Made by a program: the position numbers and the translations under genes. DNA of 57,643 nt from assembly GCA_016219175.1 (NCBI GenBank), contig JACRCD010000033.1, positions 1-57,643 of the forward strand, read 5' to 3'. Of this stretch, positions 7,092 to 52,408 are shown in pieces; within the stretch, counting starts at the first letter, position 1, and every line of letters starts with the position of its first letter. The notes under the pieces are model-generated. The model was given only the letters and a program-made list of their open reading frames with translations. It was not told where the DNA came from and did not search any database. Origin of the DNA: Deltaproteobacteria bacterium (GTDB taxonomy: Bacteria > Desulfobacterota > Desulfobulbia > Desulfobulbales > SURF-16).

Positions 7092-7376
7092 ACTTAATTC
7101 CCGCATTGATATTTTACAAGAAAATGGTATCTGTTTATGTTTACAATATGAAAATTGATGAATAAGACCCTCAATTCAATGCAGCCTCCGCGCGAGGATA
7201 AAGACATCTAGAGCGACCCCTAAAAAACATGGAACCTTTTCATATACGGATTTGTCCAGTCAGCAGAGATAAGCTGTTACTGCCCTTAATAAATTTACGT
7301 GCGTCTTCCCCGCTTCAGAGTTCCCCGTTCCGCACAGGAAATACTCGGCTGCCAAAGTGCTTAATCCGGGTGTTTC
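7092..7376. other. Intergenic region upstream of the ECF sigma gene
   Basis: About 285 bp of AT-rich DNA between the family A element and the sigma factor start. I see no convincing -35/-10 pair or hairpin. It must contain the promoter of the sigma/anti-sigma/protease genes, and an ECF-type promoter would not be recognisable by eye. Confidence 0.4.
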
Positions 7377-7958
7377 ATGAATAATGACGGGCTGAAGGCG
7401 GAGACGGACAAACTGGTTCAGGATTTTCTGAACGGCGATATACAGGCTTTTAACCGCTTGGTTTTGCTTTTTCAGACCAAGATTTATAATCTGGCCCTGA
7501 ACTATGTCAAAAACCCCGAAGAGGCAAAGGATCTGGCGCAGGACGTTTTTATCACCGTCTACCGTTCCCTGCCCAAACTGAGGGAAAAGGAAAAATTTAC
7601 ACCCTGGCTGTATCAGATTGCCATAAATCACTGCCGGAACCGCTATAAAAAACTGAGCCGCCGCGGATATTTCAGCAATATTTCCCTGGATGATGAAGAC
7701 ACACATCTGCAGCTTCCAGGAGATGAAGGGCCGGAAATATCACTCCAGCGGAAAAACACGATCAATCTTGTCCGCACCACGATTGATTCGCTGGGTGAGG
7801 CGGAAAGAGAAATTCTTCTTTTACGGGACGTCCAGGAGCTCGCTTACGATGAGATAAGCGCTATCCTTGATATTCCACTTGGTACGGTCAAATCAAAACT
7901 GAACAGAGCGCGGAGTTCTTTAAAAGAACGATTAAAAAAAATTTACCGGGATTTGTGA
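7377..7958 (+). CDS. ECF-type RNA polymerase sigma factor (RpoE-like)
   Basis: A 193-aa extracytoplasmic-function sigma factor. Region 2 covers about residues 22-90 (FQTKIYNLALNYVKNPEEAKDLAQDVFITVYRSL, then the W-L-Y-Q-I-A promoter-melting block). Region 4 covers about 135-190, with the helix-turn-helix LAYDEISAILDIPLGTVKSKLNRAR. There is no sigma region 3, as expected. The next gene, 9 bp on, is a zinc-finger anti-sigma factor, and a periplasmic protease follows. This points to an envelope-stress regulon like RpoE-DegP. The ATG lacks a strong ribosome site. Confidence 0.93.
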   Translation: MNNDGLKAETDKLVQDFLNGDIQAFNRLVLLFQTKIYNLALNYVKNPEEAKDLAQDVFITVYRSLPKLREKEKFTPWLYQIAINHCRNRYKKLSRRGYFSNISLDDEDTHLQLPGDEGPEISLQRKNTINLVRTTIDSLGEAEREILLLRDVQELAYDEISAILDIPLGTVKSKLNRARSSLKERLKKIYRDL

Positions 7959-7967
7959 GCCATCTTT

Positions 7968-8900
7968 ATGAAATGTGACGATTGCCAGGAACTATTCTCA
8001 CTCTATCTTGACGGGGAGATCGACCAGATCAGCAGGTCCGAAGTGGACTCTCATTTCAAAGCCTGCCCCCAGTGCGTCGAGGAATGGCGCGTCTTCAAAA
8101 ATACCGTAAATTTCCTGCGGGACATTCCCATGGAGAAAGTCCCGCCAGGCTTCCTGGCCGGCATTCATGAAAAACTGGAAAGACCTTCTCTCCTGGCGAG
8201 ATTTAAAGCATTATTTTTCGGCCAGGGAGAGAGAAAACTGGTATTCTCCACCGCCTTTGCCATGCTCGTCATCGGTTTTGTCACCGCCTCATTGATTCAG
8301 CTGTTCCCTTTTTCCCGTTCCGGCAAAGAAAACCAGACGCCGCTGACGGTTCCCTCCGGACAGATGGCGCAAAACGCCCTCACCCAGGAAAAACCGTCAC
8401 TTCTCCTGGCCGACAACAGCGACCAGCAGGACTATTATCCAGGGGTTCCTCCTCTCTCCGAATATGACAAGAATGAGCCCTCCTCCTTTCAGCAGTTGGC
8501 CATGGTCCCCCGCGCCAAAAGCGAACACCCTGTCCCACAGGTCGATTTTGTTTCAACCGGCGCCACGGGCCATGCGACCTCCCCGTATCTTGGCGCTCCG
8601 CTCACCTCGCTTGCCGCACGCAATCAACCCCCGTCAATTAAGCCGGACCTGCTGATCACCATCCATTCGTCATCCGGAGGTGAACAGATGGCCCTTGTGC
8701 AACAAATCGTCAAGTCACCTCTGTGGCGGGCTGAATTGTACAACCATAGCACCCTGTTGCTTTCCGTTCCCTCCGGCAGCTTTGATCAGCTTCTCCAGAT
8801 CTGCGGCCAGGGAAATACATCCGTTTCGCCCGACTATGCCGTCAACAGCAGGTACGTTTCGCTGAAACGTTTTTTAACGGTGGCGATCAAACTTGATTGA
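7968..8900 (+). CDS. Membrane-anchored zinc-finger anti-sigma factor
   Basis: A 310-aa protein whose N-terminal 55 residues carry the ZAS motif HxxxCxxC (SHFKACPQC) with an upstream C-x-x-C (KCDDCQ), as in anti-sigma factors that hold ECF sigmas. One membrane span lies near residues 90-115. The remainder, probably periplasmic, is low-complexity and Pro/Ser/Gln-rich, followed by a folded C-terminal domain from about residue 225 (DLLITIHSSSGGEQMALVQQ region) that I do not recognise. It likely sequesters the sigma factor encoded just upstream and releases it on envelope stress, perhaps by proteolysis. Release by the adjacent DegP-like protease is only inference. Confidence 0.85.
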   Translation: MKCDDCQELFSLYLDGEIDQISRSEVDSHFKACPQCVEEWRVFKNTVNFLRDIPMEKVPPGFLAGIHEKLERPSLLARFKALFFGQGERKLVFSTAFAMLVIGFVTASLIQLFPFSRSGKENQTPLTVPSGQMAQNALTQEKPSLLLADNSDQQDYYPGVPPLSEYDKNEPSSFQQLAMVPRAKSEHPVPQVDFVSTGATGHATSPYLGAPLTSLAARNQPPSIKPDLLITIHSSSGGEQMALVQQIVKSPLWRAELYNHSTLLLSVPSGSFDQLLQICGQGNTSVSPDYAVNSRYVSLKRFLTVAIKLD

Positions 8901-8955
8901 TATTTTCATAACGATTAAATAGTATAATATAAAAATATAATAAGGAATCACGGCA

Positions 8956-10386
8956 ATGAAGACACATCGCAAAAAAACATCACTTATTTCATTTCTTATG
9001 GGGGCGGTCTTTTTTTTACTGACCGCGCCGGCTTTTGCGGAGCGGCCCGACACCTTCGCCCCTCTGGTTGAAAAATACGGGGACACGGTGGTCAATATTT
9101 ACACCACCCAGACCGTCAAGGCGCCGCCCATCCCTTATTTCCCTTTCCAGGACCATCCCGATGTCCCTGAATTTTTTAAAAAATTCTTTGAACAGCAGCA
9201 GCAGGGCGAAGGCTATCATGGCCAGGCAGTGCCTCAGCCGCAGAAACGCACCAGTCTCGGTTCGGGCGTCATAACCTCGGCGGACGGCTACATCATCACC
9301 AACAATCATGTTATCGAAGAGGCTGATGAGATCAACGTCCGTTTTGCCAACCATGAAGAATACGAGGCGAAGATCATCGGCCGCGACCCGAAAACGGATA
9401 TAGCCCTGGTCAAGATCGAACCCAAGCAGCCACTGCCGTTTGTGACTTTCGGTGATTCCGACAAACTACGGGTCGGGGACTGGGTCATCGCCATCGGCAA
9501 TCCCTTTGGTTTTGAGCAGACTGTTACCGCCGGTATTGTCAGCGGCAAGGGCCGCTCGCTTGGCAGCGGTAATTACGAAAATTTCATTCAAACCGACGCC
9601 TCCATCAATCCGGGCAACTCCGGAGGCCCCCTTTTCAACCTCGACGGCGAGATGGTCGGCATCAACTCCGCCATTTACAGCCGCAGCGGCGGCAACATCG
9701 GCATCGGCTTCGCCATCCCGGTCAATATGACCAAAAATGTCATCGAACAATTAAAAACCCATGGCAAGGTAACCCGCGGCTGGCTGGGCGTCATGATTCA
9801 AAGCGTCAGCCAGGATCTGGCCAAGCAGTTCGGTCTTGATAAACCGATCGGCGCCCTGGTCGGCGAGGTAACCCCGGACAGCCCGGCGGAAAAGGCGGGT
9901 ATCCTGCCCGGCGACATCATCATCGCCTATAAAGGCAAGGAAATTTCCCAGATGAATACGCTGCCTACCCTGGTTGCCCAGACCCCTATCGGCGAGAAGG
10001 CTGAAATCACCCTGGTTAGAAAAGGCAAAAAAGAGAACGTCACCATTACCGTCGGCAAACTTGAAGAAGAGGACGAGCTGCATGGCGCGGCAACCCAGGA
10101 GAGCCTCCTGGGTCTGACGGTGCAGGAGCTGACCCCCGAACTTGCTCAATCGCTCAAACTGAAGGAAAAGGAAGGCGTCATAGTGGCGAACGTGGAGCCC
10201 AACTCCACGGCGGCCGAAGTAGGTCTGCGGGCCGGGGATCTCATTCTTGAAGTCAACCGCCAGGAAGTAAAAAATCTGGCCGACTACAACAAGGCCATCG
10301 CGGGAGTCGACAAGAAAGAAAGCTTGCTGCTGCTGGTTAAGCGAGACAGGCATTCCAGGTTTGTGGTGCTGGAACCCCGAAGGTAG
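8956..10386 (+). CDS. degP: DegP/HtrA (Do) family periplasmic serine protease
   Basis: A 476-aa Do-type protease/chaperone for misfolded envelope proteins. The Sec signal peptide runs to AFA at residue 28. The trypsin-like domain has the full triad: His118 (TNNHVIEE), Asp148 (KTDIALVKI) and Ser222 (INPGNSGGPL). A Q-rich LA-loop-like segment spans about residues 79-97. Two PDZ domains follow (about 270-365 and 385-470), with GWLGVMIQ and GLTVQELTP as their entry strands. It lies 55 bp behind the anti-sigma gene, consistent with a sigma-controlled stress protease. DegQ or MucD would be equally fair names. Confidence 0.94.
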   Translation: MKTHRKKTSLISFLMGAVFFLLTAPAFAERPDTFAPLVEKYGDTVVNIYTTQTVKAPPIPYFPFQDHPDVPEFFKKFFEQQQQGEGYHGQAVPQPQKRTSLGSGVITSADGYIITNNHVIEEADEINVRFANHEEYEAKIIGRDPKTDIALVKIEPKQPLPFVTFGDSDKLRVGDWVIAIGNPFGFEQTVTAGIVSGKGRSLGSGNYENFIQTDASINPGNSGGPLFNLDGEMVGINSAIYSRSGGNIGIGFAIPVNMTKNVIEQLKTHGKVTRGWLGVMIQSVSQDLAKQFGLDKPIGALVGEVTPDSPAEKAGILPGDIIIAYKGKEISQMNTLPTLVAQTPIGEKAEITLVRKGKKENVTITVGKLEEEDELHGAATQESLLGLTVQELTPELAQSLKLKEKEGVIVANVEPNSTAAEVGLRAGDLILEVNRQEVKNLADYNKAIAGVDKKESLLLLVKRDRHSRFVVLEPRR

Positions 10387-34447: not shown

Positions 34448-35770
34448 TCACTCTGCCACGGATTTTCTCCTGCCTCCGGCGACCGTGGAAAGATTACGCA
34501 CATCAAAATCAAAGGGAACCGATCGCCTGCGACCGCGATCTCCTCCCGCCCCCGCGGTCCGAGCCCGAGCCGGAGCCGGATTTCTCTTTTTTTGGACCTG
34601 CCGGGGACGTTCATACTCCATTTCCGCGGGTATTCCTGCTGACGATTTGCTCTCCTGGGGAATATCGGTCAGCGTCGGCCGCTGCATTTTCTTGCCCAGA
34701 TTTCGCTCAATGAGACTGATCATCCTGCTGTCTTCACGGCCGGCAAAGGTAAAGGCCTCGCCGGTCCGGCAGGCGCGACCCGTACGACCGGTACGGTGGG
34801 TGTATGTCTCGGCTGTATCCGGCATGTCATAGTTGACCACATGGGAAATTCGCGACACATCAATGCCGCGGGCCGCGATGTCGGTAGCCACCAGTATTTT
34901 GTATTTTCCGCTTTTAAATCCGTCCAGGGCCTGCTGCCTTTTCTGCTGGGAAAGATTGCCTTGCAGCGACGTGACGCTGTAACCGAACTTCTCCAGTTGC
35001 AGGGCAAGAGTCTTGGCCTTATGTTTCGTGCGGGTAAAAATCAGGGCGGAAACCATTTCGGTCTGCTCGATGATCCTTTTCAACAAAGCGGTCTTGCCCG
35101 GTTGCTCGACCTGAAAAAGCACATGGGATATGGTTGGCGCCGGCAGGTCGTGATCGATCTGCACGGTGACCGGCGATTGCAGGATATTTTCCGCCAGATG
35201 ACGGATTTCATTGGGCATGGTAGCTGAAAAGATGAGCGTCTGCCTCTGTTTCGGGACATATTTCAATATTCTGCGGATGGCCGGCAAAAAACCCTTGTCG
35301 AACATATGATCCGCCTCATCGAGAACCAGCATCTCAAGCTTGCTCAGGTTAAACGCCCCGGCATCCAGGTGATCCAGCAACCGGCCGGGACAGGCGACAA
35401 CGATTTCCGCCCCGCCGCGGATCTTGCCGATCTGGCCCTGTTTCCCCACGCCGCCATAAACCACGGCACTGGACAGACCGGTCTGCTCCGCCATCTTGCC
35501 GATATATTCATGGGTCTGCTCGGCGAGCTCCCGCGTCGGGGCAACAATCAAGGCCCGGACTTTTTTGCGGGGGCCTGTCATGAGGCGCTGCAGAATGGGC
35601 AGGACAAAGGCCGCGGTTTTACCGGTGCCTGTCTGGGCCAGCCCAAGCAGATCGCGGCCTTCAAGAACAGGAGGGATCGCCTTATACTGAATGGGGGTGG
35701 GGGAAGTGTAACCGCAGCTCGTTACCGCCGCGGCAATTTTTTCATGAAAATGAAACGAAGTGAAACTCAT
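34448..35770 (-). CDS. rhlE: DEAD-box RNA helicase, RhlE type
   Basis: A 440-aa RNA helicase for RNP and ribosome-assembly remodelling. All core motifs are visible: PTPIQYKAIP (Q-motif), AQTGTGKT (I), PTRELAEQ (Ia), DEAD in VLDEADHMFD (II), SAT (III), ATDIAARGID (V) and HRTGRTGR (VI). The tail after about residue 370 is basic and Arg-rich, typical of RhlE. AAGGAG lies 6 bases upstream of the ATG. The next gene upstream on the same strand encodes an RRM protein, so this looks like an RNA-metabolism pair. No cold-shock box is obvious in the leader. Confidence 0.93.
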   Translation of the reverse strand: MSFTSFHFHEKIAAAVTSCGYTSPTPIQYKAIPPVLEGRDLLGLAQTGTGKTAAFVLPILQRLMTGPRKKVRALIVAPTRELAEQTHEYIGKMAEQTGLSSAVVYGGVGKQGQIGKIRGGAEIVVACPGRLLDHLDAGAFNLSKLEMLVLDEADHMFDKGFLPAIRRILKYVPKQRQTLIFSATMPNEIRHLAENILQSPVTVQIDHDLPAPTISHVLFQVEQPGKTALLKRIIEQTEMVSALIFTRTKHKAKTLALQLEKFGYSVTSLQGNLSQQKRQQALDGFKSGKYKILVATDIAARGIDVSRISHVVNYDMPDTAETYTHRTGRTGRACRTGEAFTFAGREDSRMISLIERNLGKKMQRPTLTDIPQESKSSAGIPAEMEYERPRQVQKKRNPAPARARTAGAGGDRGRRRSVPFDFDVRNLSTVAGGRRKSVAE

Positions 35771-36182: not shown

Positions 36183-36449
36183 TTATCTGCGGCGCGCACC
36201 TTTTTTCTTTGGCGGTTTCGCCTCGTTGCAGATCAATTTCCGATGAGCGACCTCCACGCCGTTCAGACCTTCCATGACCTTATGACCTTCAGGACGGCTG
36301 GACATCTCAACAAAACCAAAACCCTTGGTCTGCCCTGAAAAATGGTCGGTTATTATTTTCGCGCTCAGCACACTGCCAAAAGGAACACAGAGCTCATTCA
36401 GTTCTTTATCGTTCATGTTATAGGGAAGATTGCCGATATAAAGTTTCAT
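36183..36449 (-). CDS. Small RRM-type RNA-binding protein
   Basis: An 88-aa single-RRM protein like the glycine-poor bacterial Rbp proteins. RNP2 is LYIGNL (residues 3-8) and RNP1 is KGFGFVEM (about 43-50). A basic tail (PPKKKGARRR) follows. AGGAG lies 7 bases before the chosen ATG; farther in-frame starts lack this. Such proteins bind single-stranded RNA and are often stress- or cold-induced. The gene sits between rhlE and the gene-free block with tandem RNA-like units. Confidence 0.92.
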   Translation of the reverse strand: MKLYIGNLPYNMNDKELNELCVPFGSVLSAKIITDHFSGQTKGFGFVEMSSRPEGHKVMEGLNGVEVAHRKLICNEAKPPKKKGARRR

Positions 36450-36642: not shown

Positions 36643-36790
36643 GGAACCTTTTCTAAACGAGAGCGTCTTAATAAACAAGAACGTAAGTGATAACAATCCT
36701 GTTACCTTACTTTTCTCTTCTTCATTTTTCTCGCAGTTTCCCGCAAGGGAAACGGAAAGCCGGTGTTCCTCCCAACACCGGCTTTTTTTT
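36643..36790 (+). ncRNA. Candidate small RNA, tandem unit 1
   Basis: This is the first of three similar units (148 bp). It begins GGAACCTTTTC, contains GCGTCTTAATAAACAAGAACG and a pyrimidine-rich middle, and ends in a terminator: AAAGCCGGTGTT, loop CCTCCC, AACACCGGCTTT, then five more T. T-runs follow only on the plus strand, which favours plus-strand transcription. No open reading frame is shared with the other copies. The RNA is not matched to a known family by me. Confidence 0.45.
36756..36790 (+). terminator. Intrinsic terminator of unit 1
   Basis: A 12-bp perfect stem with a 6-base loop (CCTCCC) is followed directly by a T-run. Units 2 and 3 have the same CCCTCCCAA-type loop at their stems. 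Confidence 0.8.
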
Positions 36791-36806
36791 ATGCGCCTTA
36801 CCTTCA

Positions 36807-37027
36807 GAGCCTCTTGCAAAATGACGCAATGAACGTTTCGTCATGCCGGGCAAGCGCAGCGCGACCTTGACCGAGGTAACGCCGATCACCGGCCAGATCC
36901 GTCATTCCGGGCAAGCGCGGCGCGACCCGGAATCCATAGTGCTCCGGATTCCCGCTGGAGTTTATCCTCACGGCAGTGGGGACGGGAATGACGGCGGATT
37001 GATTTTATGTCATTTTACAAGAAGCTC
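36807..37027. mobile_element. MITE-like element, family C copy 1
   Basis: It is bounded by GAGCCTCTTGCAAAATGAC and the inverted partner GTCATTTTACAAGAAGCTC (two mismatches in 19). Inside are two copies of a GTCATTCCGGGCAAGCGC-like arm and CGGATTCCCGCTGGAG. It lies exactly between tandem units 1 and 2. It shares ends and interior with copy 2 at 52246-52408. Confidence 0.75.
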
Positions 37028-37045
37028 ATTCTTTCATTTTTTTTT

Positions 37046-37190
37046 GGAACCTTTCCAGAACCGGGGCATCTTAACTATTAAGTCCGCAAGTAATGACAAA
37101 TTTCTTGGCTGACATTTTTTACTCCTTTCTTCATTTCTTTCTCCGCATCTTCTATAAAAAAACCGGCGCCCTCCCAACGCCGGTTTTTTT
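37046..37190 (+). ncRNA. Candidate small RNA, tandem unit 2
   Basis: A 145-bp unit aligned with unit 1 from GGAACCTTTCC through GGGCATCTTAACTATTAAG and CTTCATTTCTTTCTCC to a terminator (AACCGGCG, 9-base loop CCCTCCCAA, CGCCGGTT, T7). A family C element lies 18 bp upstream, so any promoter it had may be displaced. On the opposite strand AAAGGAG precedes a 14-codon ORF, but that peptide is not conserved in units 1 and 3. Confidence 0.4.
37161..37190 (+). terminator. Intrinsic terminator of unit 2
   Basis: Stem AACCGGCG/CGCCGGTT with loop CCCTCCCAA and a T-run. An A-run before it means it could also work on the minus strand. Confidence 0.75.
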
Positions 37191-37210
37191 ATGCCCGGAA
37201 CATTTTTTCC

Positions 37211-37352
37211 GGAACCTTTTCCGCATCAGCGCATCTTAATTAACAAGACGGCAAGCGAAACAACTCACTTACCTGTCATTTTTCACTCATTTTTCATTTT
37301 TTTCTCCTCAGCTTCAGTAAAAAAACCGGCGCCCTCCCAACGCCGGTTTTTT
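37211..37352 (+). ncRNA. Candidate small RNA, tandem unit 3
   Basis: A 142-bp unit beginning GGAACCTTTTCCGC. It contains GCGCATCTTAATTAACAAG and GGCAAGCGAAACAA, then a T/C-rich stretch and the same terminator as unit 2. It starts 20 bp after the unit 2 terminator. The adk start codon follows about 160 bp later, so these RNAs would be separate from adk. Confidence 0.4.
37323..37352 (+). terminator. Intrinsic terminator of unit 3
   Basis: Stem AACCGGCG/CGCCGGTT, loop CCCTCCCAA, then T-run. It is identical in stem and loop to that of unit 2. Confidence 0.75.
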
Positions 37353-37515
37353 TATTGCTTCACCACCTCCATTCCCGAAACGCCCTGTCTCCAGCGGAAC
37401 CTTCGCGCTTTTCTTGTTTTTTTACTGTCAAACGACACAAAACAATGTATATTTTCTAGTTTTTCCGCTCCCCATAAACATTCAACAAATATCTGATCGA
37501 CTCAGGAGGATTACT

Positions 37516-38163
37516 ATGAAAATCATACTTCTCGGCGCGCCCGGCGCAGGCAAGGGTACTGTGGCAAAAATGCTGACCAAGCTCGACGGTTCCGTCCAGA
37601 TCTCAACCGGGGATATTCTGCGTGGCGCGGTTCAGGCCGGCACCGAACTGGGCAAGGAGGCGGACGGCTACATGAAACGTGGCGATCTGGTCCCCGATTC
37701 TCTCATTATGGGCATCATGGAAAAACGGCTGCAGGAATCCGACTGCCAGCAAGGCTTTCTGCTTGACGGCTTCCCCCGCACCATCCCCCAGGCGGAAGAA
37801 CTGAATCAGCTGCTGGCCAAGCTGGGCATCAAACTCGACATGGTTGTCAACATTGACGTACCGCGTGACGTCATCTTTGATCGTCTCTGCACCCGCCGAA
37901 CCTGCGAAAATGCCAAATGCCAGGCGATCTACAATGTTAAAAGCAACCCGCCCCAGCAAGAAGGCATCTGCGACAAATGCGGCTCCCCCGTTGTCCAGCG
38001 GGCTGACGAAACCCAGGAGGCCATCGCCCATCGCCTGGACACCTACAACCAGAAAACCGCTCCCCTGGCCGGCTTCTACGAAAAGGAAGGACTGCTGAAA
38101 ACCATCACCGGCACCTCCAGCGACCTGGTGGTGAGCGGTATCCAAAAAGCACTGGGCAAATAA
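37516..38163 (+). CDS. adk: Adenylate kinase
   Basis: Adk balances ATP, ADP and AMP. The 215-aa long-form enzyme has the P-loop GAPGAGKGT (7-15), the AMP site [19 protein letters not shown] and a zinc-finger LID: C-x5-C pattern in [11 protein letters not shown] and CDKCG (about residues 127-158). Cys-type LIDs are common in anaerobes. AGGAGG lies 6 bases upstream of the ATG. The stop overlaps the trmFO start (TAATG). Confidence 0.97.
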
Positions 38164-40296: not shown

Positions 40297-40514
40297 TTTG
40301 CCGGGTGTGCAGACTGCCGGCCTCTCACGGAGCGCGAGAGAAGATACAAGACTGGCACGTTGAGCCAGCCGGCAGCTCTCCTGTTCTTCAGCGGAAAGAG
40401 CGCCAGTTTTTCCGAAAAAATGGAATACCATCCCGTTTCCCGGAAAAAAATACTATTTATTCCAATTTTCCTGCCCAAAAGCTATAATTCGCAAAGCCAT
40501 ACCCCTAGAAAAAA

Positions 40515-40558
40515 CAGCAAAAAGCCGCGCGAAGATAGTTATGGCGCGGAATTTGCTG
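40515..40558 (+). promoter_or_regulatory. Structured leader hairpin upstream of the S8 protease
   Basis: CAGCAAA/TTTGCTG encloses CCGCGC/GCGCGG, a two-part stem about 100 nt before the start codon. The 363-bp gap 40297-40659 otherwise shows no repeat or gene. A CGCAAAGCC word at about 40489 hints at a riboswitch but the rest of a c-di-GMP class I fold is missing. Confidence 0.35.
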
Positions 40559-40659
40559 GTATTTCATCAACACACACCATCGCTTCATGCCCCTTTTCCA
40601 GGATGAAGATTTTGGACCATTCACCGTCAAGTTGCACGCTTGTCAGGAGGATTTCACCC

Positions 40660-43206
40660 GTGACAAAACAAATACGCAGGGCATGCGGTATTCTGGCGGC
40701 TGCCCTCCTGTGTTTCCCCCCGCCTGCCCTCGCCTTGAAAAAGGCGCAATTGCTCGACGTGCAGCCGCGGCCCATGAGGCAAGGACAATCCTCCTTCGAC
40801 CCCAACAAAGTTCTATCCCCTCTACAGACGACATCCTTGGCCAGCGGTGAAAAGATTCTGCTCGCCCCAGGCCGGCCATCCGCCAAAAAGCCTCTCTACA
40901 AGCCGGACGAGGTTGTCATCAAATTAAAAAAATCCGTTACCCCTCAGTCGTTTCAGACAAAAGGCGCAAAAATGGGCCTTGAAATCAAAAAGAGATTCAA
41001 AACCCTGTCCCGGGTGAAAGGCCAGGAATTTTTACTGATAAAATCCCAGTCAGCTTCAGCCGGCAAGCTGCTTGACATGCTGCGCCAGGATCCGATGGTA
41101 GAGGCTGCGTCTCTCAACTATTTGCGCTATATCAATACAACACCGGACGACGCTCTTTTCTATCAACAGTGGTCCCTGGCCAACACCGGACAGTTAGTAG
41201 CCGGATATCCGGGCGGCACACCGGGCGCCGACATTGATGCCGGCCGGGCCTGGGATGTGCAGACCGGCAACAGCAATACGGTCGTGGCGGTGCTGGATAC
41301 CGGCGTGGCCTATGACCACCCTGATTTGACAGACAACATGTGGGTCAACAGTCAGGAGCTGGCCGGAACAGCGGGGGTGGATGATGACGGCAACGGTTAT
41401 GTCGACGACATATACGGCATTGATACCGGCGAAGGCGACAGCGACCCGCTTGATCACTACGGCCACGGCACCCACGTCGCCGGCACCATTGCCGCCAGCG
41501 GCAACAACACCCTCGGCGTGACCGGCATCAACTGGGACGGCAGGGTTATGGCCGTCAAGGGTTTCCCGGACAATGCGGAACTCGGGCTCTCCCTTGATGC
41601 CGAACTGGCGGCCCTTGACTATATTATCGCCATGAAGCAGAGCGGCGTAAATATCGTGGCCATCAATGCCTCATATGGGGGCGGCGGCCAAAGCCAGCTC
41701 CAGAAAGAGGCTATTGAAGCGGCGGGTGCGGCGGGCATTATTTTTATCGCGGCGGCCGGCAACGACGGCTCAAATAATGATGCCGCCCCCCAGTATCCCG
41801 CCTCATACGATTCCGCCAATATCATCAGCGTGGCGGCCACGGACCGGAATGACCTGCTCACCTCCTGGTCAAACTACGGGGTAAACTCCACAGATCTGGG
41901 GGCGCCTGGCGATCTGATATTAAGCACCTATTCATGGCAAAATTACGATCCGGCCCCGGGGGATGTCTTTTACGACGACATGGAGGGTGGTTCCGTCAAC
42001 TGGCTGGCTGACGGCTCCTGGATGATAACGGAAGAGGAGGCATCAAGCCCTACCCATGCCTGGTCCGACAGCCCATACGGACAGTACGGCGACAACACCT
42101 TCTTCGCCCTGCAGTCCCGCGCCGTGGATTTGTCCTCCGCGCAAACACCCCTTACCCTTGGCTTCAGCGCCAAATTTGCTCTGGAACAGGATTTTGATTT
42201 TCTGGATGTTTATTTTTACGGTAAAGGCGATCATCTCTGGGAGGTGACGGCTGAAAATCCATGGAGCGGCAGCAACTCCTGGTCCGACAGTCCGGGCGGC
42301 AACTATCCGGACAATCTCGAAAACTGGCTTGTCAGCCCAACAATCAATCTTTCCGGCAGCGGGCCCGATACCGCCCTGAACTTTGTCTTCACCGGCATGG
42401 TGGAACAGGGTTACGACAAGCTGAAGATTTACGTGAGTGGTGATGGCGGCGCCCAGTGGGCCGCCCTGACCTACCTGACCGGTGACTATAGCGATGACTG
42501 GTATGAGGCGCCGGTGAACATCCCCGCGGCGTACCGCACAGGGCAATTCCGCTTCGCCCTTGTCCTATCCAGTGATTATTCCATTACCCATGACGGCTAT
42601 TACATTGACAATGTGTCCGTGGCTGACGGCGCGGCAACCTTTTTTGCCGACGGCATGGAATCCGGCCCAGGGGCATGGAGCGCGCCGGATGGGATATGGC
42701 ACTACCTGGGCGGCATCACGGGCAGCTCCGCTGGCGGCTGGAATGCGTTCAACGTGAACATCGACCAAAAATATTTCTGGGACGGTTTCAGGGTTGCCTT
42801 TGTTTTATCCTCGGATATAAACTTGGTGGACGACGGAGTCCATATTGATGATGTGGGCATTGGCGCAGCCATGGAAACAAACGGCTATGTCTACATGAGC
42901 GGCACATCCATGGCTACCCCCCATGTTGCGGGGGCTGTCGCCCTGACGGCAGCGCAGCATCCCCAGGAAAATGTTGCGGCAAGAATCACCCGAATACTGG
43001 CCGGGGTTGAGCCTTTGCCCTCTCTTGCCGGGAAGGTGGCCACCGGAGGGCGGCTCAACCTCGCCGCCTCAGCGGGAACAGCTCCCGAGCCCGCCACCTG
43101 CGATCTGGACGGAGACGGAGACGTTGACGGCAGCGATCTTGCCGGATTTCTGACCGGGCAATTCCCGGTGACCATAGATGTTTGCGCCACGCATTTCGGC
43201 AAATAG
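40660..43206 (+). CDS. Secreted subtilisin-family (S8) serine protease with dockerin-like tail
   Basis: An 848-aa exported protease. The GTG start follows AGGAGG by 9 bases and gives a clean signal peptide ending at ALA (about 23). A propeptide-like region (PDEVVIKLK to NYLRYIN) precedes the S8 domain: Asp213 (VLDTGVAYDHPDL), His269 (HGTHVAG), oxyanion Asn in AAAGNDG and Ser750 (GTSMATPHVAG). A beta-rich insert of roughly 300 residues between Asn and Ser has two similar DDMEGG/ADGMESG plus DSPGGNYPDN-type modules. The last 30 residues (CDLDGDGDVDGSDLAGFL) are a calcium-binding dockerin-like repeat, shared with the protein at 52896. It converges on the next gene with 12 bp between. Confidence 0.9.
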   Translation: MTKQIRRACGILAAALLCFPPPALALKKAQLLDVQPRPMRQGQSSFDPNKVLSPLQTTSLASGEKILLAPGRPSAKKPLYKPDEVVIKLKKSVTPQSFQTKGAKMGLEIKKRFKTLSRVKGQEFLLIKSQSASAGKLLDMLRQDPMVEAASLNYLRYINTTPDDALFYQQWSLANTGQLVAGYPGGTPGADIDAGRAWDVQTGNSNTVVAVLDTGVAYDHPDLTDNMWVNSQELAGTAGVDDDGNGYVDDIYGIDTGEGDSDPLDHYGHGTHVAGTIAASGNNTLGVTGINWDGRVMAVKGFPDNAELGLSLDAELAALDYIIAMKQSGVNIVAINASYGGGGQSQLQKEAIEAAGAAGIIFIAAAGNDGSNNDAAPQYPASYDSANIISVAATDRNDLLTSWSNYGVNSTDLGAPGDLILSTYSWQNYDPAPGDVFYDDMEGGSVNWLADGSWMITEEEASSPTHAWSDSPYGQYGDNTFFALQSRAVDLSSAQTPLTLGFSAKFALEQDFDFLDVYFYGKGDHLWEVTAENPWSGSNSWSDSPGGNYPDNLENWLVSPTINLSGSGPDTALNFVFTGMVEQGYDKLKIYVSGDGGAQWAALTYLTGDYSDDWYEAPVNIPAAYRTGQFRFALVLSSDYSITHDGYYIDNVSVADGAATFFADGMESGPGAWSAPDGIWHYLGGITGSSAGGWNAFNVNIDQKYFWDGFRVAFVLSSDINLVDDGVHIDDVGIGAAMETNGYVYMSGTSMATPHVAGAVALTAAQHPQENVAARITRILAGVEPLPSLAGKVATGGRLNLAASAGTAPEPATCDLDGDGDVDGSDLAGFLTGQFPVTIDVCATHFGK

Positions 43207-52245: not shown

Positions 52246-52408
52246 GAACCTCTGGCAAAATGACGGCAATGAACGTTTCGTCATTCCGGGCAAGCGCAGC
52301 GCGACCCGGAATCCATTGTGCTTTCCGGATTCCCGCTGGAGTTTATCCTCACGGCAGTGGGGGCGGGAATGACGGCAAATTGCTTTTAGGTCATTCCGCA
52401 AGAGTCTC
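52246..52408. mobile_element. MITE-like element, family C copy 2
   Basis: It is bounded by GAACCTCTGGCAAAATGAC and TCATTCCGCAAGAGTCTC. The interior GTCATTCCGGGCAAGCGCAG, CGGATTCCCGCTGGAGTTTA and GGCGGGAATGACGG matches copy 1 at 36900-37000 almost base for base. It begins 15 bp upstream of the ZIP start codon, so the transporter's promoter may lie in or beyond it. Confidence 0.75.

Follow-up and report, generated by a model that had tools for sequence, protein, structure and literature searches.

The window, by which we mean the whole 57,643-nt stretch of DNA that was analysed, contains three tandem direct-repeat units on the plus strand of an intergenic region (36643-36791, 37046-37192 and 37211-37355), flanked by the gene for an RRM protein on one side and by adk on the other. 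Units 1, 2 and 3 measure 149, 147 and 145 bp as cut in this re-analysis and align with one another over their whole length. The sequence-only reading of this DNA had described three units with shared blocks at 148, 145 and 142 bp, and these were recovered with boundaries a few bases apart. The features of the cluster are listed below.

36183-36449, minus strand: gene for an RRM-domain RNA-binding protein, adjoining the cluster
36643-36671, plus strand: predicted unit 1 promoter, -35 element GGAACCTTTTC and -10 region GCGTCTTAA; the -35 box is the same as that of the ECF sigma gene promoter at 7231
36675-36791, plus strand: putative unit 1 small RNA, type A, with an extra hairpin before the terminator; its 5' end is placed by the promoter and its 3' end by the terminator
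36707-36742, plus strand: unit 1 CU-rich core, whose best predicted partner among 336 sampled start sites is that of an OmpP1/FadL gene
36756-36785, plus strand: unit 1 terminator hairpin (inverted repeat I5), loop CCTCCC at 36768-36773
37046-37074, plus strand: predicted unit 2 promoter, GGAACCTTTCC ... GCATCTTAA
37078-37192, plus strand: putative unit 2 small RNA, type B, ends inferred
37122-37145, plus strand: unit 2 core CTCCTTTCTTCATTTCTTTCTCCG, antisense of a start site of the form GGAG-A-rich-ATGAAGAAAGGAG
37154-37192, plus strand: unit 2 terminator hairpin (inverted repeat I2), loop CCCTCCCAA at 37169-37177
37211-37239, plus strand: predicted unit 3 promoter, GGAACCTTTTC ... GCATCTTAA
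37243-37355, plus strand: putative unit 3 small RNA, type B, ends inferred
37290-37307, plus strand: unit 3 core, exact antisense of GGAGAAAAAAATGAAAAA
37315-37357, plus strand: unit 3 terminator hairpin (inverted repeat I1), loop CCCTCCCAA at 37332-37340
37516-38163, plus strand: adk

Each unit closes in a GC-rich terminator hairpin with a CCTCCC-type loop, and the accompanying T-run lies on the plus side only in unit 1 and on both sides in units 2 and 3; the hairpins and the one-sided T-run of unit 1 had both been described from the letters and were found again here. A simple terminator scan of the plus strand listed none of the three unit hairpins. The putative transcripts of units 1, 2 and 3 fold with z-scores of -6.6, -5.2 and -6.0, respectively (0 of 200 shuffles as stable for each), a stability that comes mostly from the terminator hairpin. 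The terminator stem covaries, with 13 of 14 pairs changed on both sides, 95.5% of cells paired and 0 of 500 shuffles scoring as high. By eye, the units fall into two sub-types: type A (unit 1) has a short extra hairpin preceding the terminator and is matched by one counterpart each in four of the five genus relatives, and type B (units 2 and 3) is multi-copy.

The refuting case named in the earlier reading, that the unit is a dispersed mobile repeat, was not encountered: unit 3 used as a DNA query returned only units 3 and 2 from the source genome, and a covariance model built from the three window units only (R1) returned only those three. Positions 36839-36935, in the gap that separates unit 1 from unit 2, contain a separate repeat, CGTCATTCCGGGCAAGCG..GCGACCCGGAATCCA, which occurs again at window position 52279 and at L195:15532. 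Its full form has three copies in 457 kb of the source genome, and as a dispersed repeat it may have pushed units 1 and 2 further apart. Elsewhere in the window, a large protein gene at 40360-43206 ends in a DLDGDGDVDGSDL stretch; we take its product to be subtilase-like and that end to be dockerin-like.

Searching a covariance model of the three copies in related genomes had been proposed as a check, and R1 matched 20 of the 22 family genomes listed at E<=0.01, source genome included, with weak matches only in the remaining two (G012 and G019). The copies were mostly tandem, numbering up to five (G005). A second covariance model, built from 45 units (R2), matched 75 of 193 genomes from the order at E<=0.01, in some cases through the terminator part alone, and 21 of the 22 family genomes listed, the latter count being partly by construction because family units were fed into the model. 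The 22 family genomes are those listed, and additional ones that lack the RNA may be among 98 non-matching genomes outside that list. Full-length R2 matches at E<1e-6 came from 27 genomes of other families (21 of f4, three of f14, two of f7 and one of f5); four of these (G046, G054, G087 and G122) had supplied units to the model. Duplicate loci, antisense matches and partial matches were excluded from unit counts, and the truncated match L030 was kept in the 46-unit set used for motif and frame counts and left out of the 45-unit alignment (A5). Two tandem copies each were present in G024, a single-contig genome, and in Desulfurivibrio sp. AMeS2 (L072). The nearest named relatives by adk, at 86-87% identity, are uncultured Desulfobulbaceae and MAGs with labels of that sort.

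The start common to the units, GGAACCTTTTC...CRTCTTA, had been read as part of the RNA. It is instead most likely an ECF-sigma promoter, judging by its form: a GGAACC-T-rich block is followed about 16 nt on by an RTCTTA block, and once the GGAACCTTTTC and GCRTCTTAA blocks are assigned to the promoter, what is left as RNA is about 113-117 nt long. The -35 element of E. coli RpoE reads GGAACTT in the published account (PMC8103513). Among the 46 units, 44 carry the GGAAC box on the plus strand, a count to be read with the covariance model's own selection for the box; the exceptions are L022, with TGAAC, and the truncated L030. The -10 pattern was missed by 19 of the 46 units.

The same box precedes a sigma gene in the window. 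The box at 7231 is GGAACCTTTTC, with 11 bases identical to those of units 1 and 3, and it stands upstream of a sigma factor, an anti-sigma factor and a protease in that order (7377-10386), 29 kb from the small-RNA cluster.

7231-7257, plus strand: predicted ECF sigma gene promoter, GGAACCTTTTCATATACGGATTTGTCC
7377-7958, plus strand: RpoE-like ECF sigma factor, 193 aa
7968-8900, plus strand: zf-HC2 anti-sigma factor, 310 aa
8956-10386, plus strand: DegP/HtrA (Do family) serine protease, 476 aa

A search of 38 relatives gave 31 sigma matches, and 30 loci (28 orthologues and two distant matches) were examined. A GGAAC[CT]T box was found 49-147 nt before the predicted start in 28 of 28 orthologous sigma genes (53-100% identity) and before neither of the two distant matches (31-32% identity). 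The spacer between the promoter blocks was mostly 16 nt in the RNAs and 17 nt in 17 of the 18 sigma promoters (out of 28) that were compared. In the whole 4.2-Mb source genome a looser box pattern occurred at six sites, namely the three RNAs, the sigma gene and two sites within mechanically called ORFs; as a reversed control gave seven sites, the pattern alone is not enriched, and it is the position of the boxes rather than their number that counts as evidence. The exact promoter pattern matched one of 58 genomes, the source genome itself, because it was too strict. Across six genus genomes, no further regulon beyond the RNAs and sigma genes emerged from the promoter pattern (13 sites, 10 of them RNAs, vs 7 reversed) or from a looser version of it (33 sites, including 10 RNAs and 5 sigma-gene promoters, vs 39 reversed).

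Judged by its gene content, the window sigma operon is of the envelope-stress kind, combining, as RpoE/AlgU-type ECF operons do, an ECF sigma factor, an anti-sigma factor, a DegP/MucD-like protease and a box that fits autoregulation. The protease scored 550 bits against a cut-off of 416 for the Do family. The sigma factor scored 129.5 bits against the NCBIfam RpoE equivalog TIGR02939, below the threshold of 236.15, and this was the best of 93 families. Seven sigma-70-family matches were found in the source genome, three of them ECF-like by length and domains, and among these three only the gene at 7377-7958 has an upstream box by the patterns used. Across the 30 sigma loci, whose flanks were short, the anti-sigma factor was found in 27 and the protease in 18. 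In four of these loci the anti-sigma match is followed on the same strand, 14-337 bp further 3', by a family RNA with its own box (G015 and G007, which share a genus; G030; and G027, with a weak match of 26 bits).

The RNA and the sigma factor also tend to occur together. A full-length R2 match was present in 24 of 28 genomes with a sigma orthologue vs 1 of 10 without (Fisher p = 3.8e-5, uncorrected for relatedness). This count treats G012, matched over model positions 32-157, as full length, but not G026, G029 and G036, which match in the terminator part only; G030, whose RNA was found only by local search, was omitted, and its inclusion would give 25 instead of 24. One genome (G006, 90% complete) carries the RNA with no sigma orthologue found.

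Between promoter and terminator, the unpaired body of the units is CU-rich. The motif TTCAT-(Y4-9)-CTCC, which is the antisense of GGAG-(R4-9)-ATGAA, is present in 23 of 46 units, where dinucleotide shuffles would predict 0.1; for a looser form the figures are 35 of 46 and 1.7. A CU-rich anti-Shine-Dalgarno motif occupies the terminator loop in 28 of 42 units vs 1 of 44 background terminators taken by the same finder from 457 kb of the source genome, the denominator of 42 reflecting four units for which the finder gave nothing. As both motifs were defined after the units were seen and the units are related, these counts are not independent. By its letters, the RNA mirrors a ribosome-binding site and start codon at their natural spacing. 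The sequence-only reading had proposed duplicated small-RNA genes with C-rich loops that could pair with ribosome-binding sites. This is supported indirectly by comparison (conservation, covariation, loop enrichment and antisense-start bodies), with the amendments that the first 30 bp or so of each unit would be promoter and that the CU-rich unpaired body probably matters no less than the loop.

The start-site pattern, allowing up to two mismatches, occurs at 34 sites in the genome, including two on the RNAs' own antisense strand, and the reversed pattern at 5. With one mismatch or none there are nine further sites, at seven of which a frame of at least 234 codons opens; judged by eye, six of these seven frames start in signal-peptide-like fashion, and two of the six look multihaem-cytochrome-like. 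Predicted pairing of the cores was then compared over 336 genes called in the window plus 400 kb of source genome, with heuristic gene and signal-peptide calls. The unit 3 core prefers signal-peptide starts more than 100 of 100 of its own shuffles, and the cores of units 1 and 2 did not stand out on the same genes, with 17 and 6 of 100 shuffles as good. On this evidence, the predicted target preference among the window units is clear for unit 3 only. Two units of another genus showed the preference again when 221 genes called in the genome they come from were used (0 and 1 of 100 shuffles as good). When whole single-stranded regions were used, duplex energies gave no raw signal-peptide preference (Mann-Whitney p 0.94, 0.88 and 0.30). 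The best predicted partner of unit 1, and thereby its candidate for repression of an outer-membrane protein mRNA, is the OmpP1/FadL gene (PF03349) at -27.6 kcal/mol; by the heuristic, neither unit 2 nor unit 3 has a signal-peptide gene as its top single partner. For unit 3, unbroken pairing is predicted across the Shine-Dalgarno sequence and AUG of two genes (L201:152 and the L197 gene).

We consider it probable, on sequence evidence, that the RNAs are the noncoding arm of a sigma-E-type envelope-stress response and block the translation starts of exported and outer-membrane proteins. The three units would be tandem genes for trans-acting small RNAs of about 115 nt, each with its own promoter for the RpoE-like sigma factor. 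Envelope damage would free the sigma factor from its zinc-finger anti-sigma factor, and free sigma would raise its own operon, DegP included, and in parallel the small RNAs. The unpaired CU-rich body would pair with a ribosome-binding site and start codon of the 'AGGAG-AAAAA-ATG-AAR-AAR' type, with the CCUCCC terminator loop as a second anti-Shine-Dalgarno stretch. Pairing at the start sites of exported and outer-membrane protein mRNAs would stop their translation and lighten the load on the envelope. Transcription of the units, use of their promoters by this sigma factor, the mRNA targets and their repression are predictions of this model, and for induction by envelope stress it is promoter and operon content alone that point the way. 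We regard as tentative, and rather doubtful, the broader idea of a generic anti-start-site RNA, in which a sigma-driven flood turns down protein export as a class without Hfq. The RNAs would here mirror the AGGAG-A-rich-ATG-AAR-AAR (Met-Lys-Lys) start typical of signal-peptide genes.

Hfq (PF17209) was found in 0 of 38 genomes at E<=0.001, with 5 of 14 controls positive, and another chaperone in its place is possible. The neighbouring RRM protein is a possible RNA partner by its position only. In the source genome, with no Hfq match, this single-RRM gene adjoins a DEAD-box helicase gene (34448-35770), and four of the five genus relatives likewise have both genes close to the RNAs. That the RNAs are sigma-dependent yet act mainly by some other route, be it general anti-Shine-Dalgarno competition, titration of a CU-binding protein such as the RRM protein, or a few specific mRNAs in place of exported proteins at large, seems to us unlikely. 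CU-rich bodies and loops would suit several partners, and the RRM gene stands beside the cluster in the source genome and four of five genus relatives, but no RRM match lies beside it in the other genera checked or in G004. The weak target preference of units 1 and 2 also leans towards such a route; the ordered antisense of ribosome-binding site, spacer and AUG, however, far exceeds shuffles, and the preference for signal-peptide starts was replicated in another genus.

The genomic location of the RNAs bears on a second alternative, a terminator or attenuator array or an adk leader with no trans-acting role, to which we give very little weight. Of the 27 RNA-holding stretches checked, 19 have adk and/or trmFO along with the cluster, as such a role would lead one to expect. 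Two others have the sigma gene, and in six none of these genes was found; the location is therefore not fixed, a point against the envelope-stress reading. In five genus relatives (L289, L302, L303, L304 and L305) no intact adk was found upstream of trmFO, L305 having an adk fragment (59% over 54 residues), and the RNA cluster is retained there, upstream of trmFO; an adk leader was rejected on this ground. The copies at the sigma operon in four genomes and the separate promoter box of every window unit also count against a leader or array.

It is highly improbable that the minus strand is the functional one, supplying the ribosome-binding site and ATG of a very short peptide (MKK...) with a bidirectional terminator flanking it, since the AGGAG-A-rich-ATGAA string readable on the minus strand of many units, the MKKGVNAF peptide start of one genus and the symmetric terminators of units 2 and 3 are set against an ATGAA frame of 4-40 codons in 36 units that is absent from 10 of 46, peptides unlike between genera, the plus-side T-run of unit 1 and the plus-strand GGAAC box, though the model selects for the last. 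A plus-strand peptide was rejected as well, a Shine-Dalgarno-like start followed by at least 8 codons being present in only 2 of 46 units.

No Rfam family reached its gathering score anywhere in the window. The best scores were 33.6 bits for ar14 (RF02344; gathering score 58.8), 32.4 bits for Betaproteobacteria_toxic_sRNA (RF02278; 50) and 25.1 bits for CcsR1 (RF02791; 65.3), and membership of a known Rfam family was rejected with best scores of 25-34 bits against gathering scores of 50-65. These resemblances are weak (E 0.0035-0.051), and they are near chance, given that a ylbH leader on the other strand and a Thr leader score about equally. The ar14 / CcsR CCUCCUCCC RNAs and the betaproteobacterial toxic small RNA are CU-rich, as the window units are. 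CcsR RNAs are cut from a single precursor, whereas in the window every unit comes with a separate promoter box and terminator. Rfam includes an LhrC family, which was absent from the window and four-locus results, and MicA, RybB and MicL were absent from the matches at gathering score in the window and at E<=0.5 in the four loci.

The RNAs do resemble several known regulators in kind. MicA and RybB require Hfq. With MicL, they are described as sigma-E-dependent small RNAs of E. coli that form a noncoding repression arm with outer-membrane protein targets (PMC8103513). The window RNAs would similarly be the noncoding repression arm of an RpoE envelope-stress sigma factor, behind a GGAACTT-like -35 box; they differ in their tandem copies, in a CU-rich body antisense to a generic start site and in the lack of an Hfq match in 38 of 38 genomes. 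The RpoE-type ECF promoter form expected of a sigma-E arm is present, in a box common to the sigma gene and its orthologues; no homology to MicA, RybB or MicL was found among the Rfam matches, nor an Hfq gene on which pairing could depend. LhrC1-5 of Listeria, 111-114 nt long, are reported as a five-copy set that envelope stress induces through the LisRK two-component system and for which Hfq is dispensable; their CU-rich sites, located in single-stranded sequence and in the loop of the terminator, are predicted to cover the Shine-Dalgarno sequence of lapB mRNA (PMC4132741). The window RNAs share the several copies, the length of about 110 nt (here predicted) and the CU-rich unpaired stretch and terminator loop, but come from a different phylum, have an ECF-type promoter and hold an antisense start codon in the body as well. 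NmsRA and NmsRB of Neisseria are likewise tandem intergenic siblings with two predicted anti-Shine-Dalgarno motifs, but their reported control is the stringent response and their targets belong to the TCA cycle (PMC5362039). An earlier description of the window RNA family was not found by the searches made of the open-access literature or in Rfam 15, and on sequence grounds we file these RNAs as a new family, whose targeting region is unusual, within a kind of regulator already known.

If the envelope-stress reading is correct, this Desulfobulbales-like group would have a response of the sigma-E kind, noncoding arm included, in genomes that yielded no Hfq gene, and would have converged independently on the logic of MicA/RybB and LhrC. 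Should the antisense-start-site idea also be true, one RNA would be aimed simply at a whole protein class, the exported proteins, with multihaem-cytochrome-like ones among the RNAs' predicted partners here.
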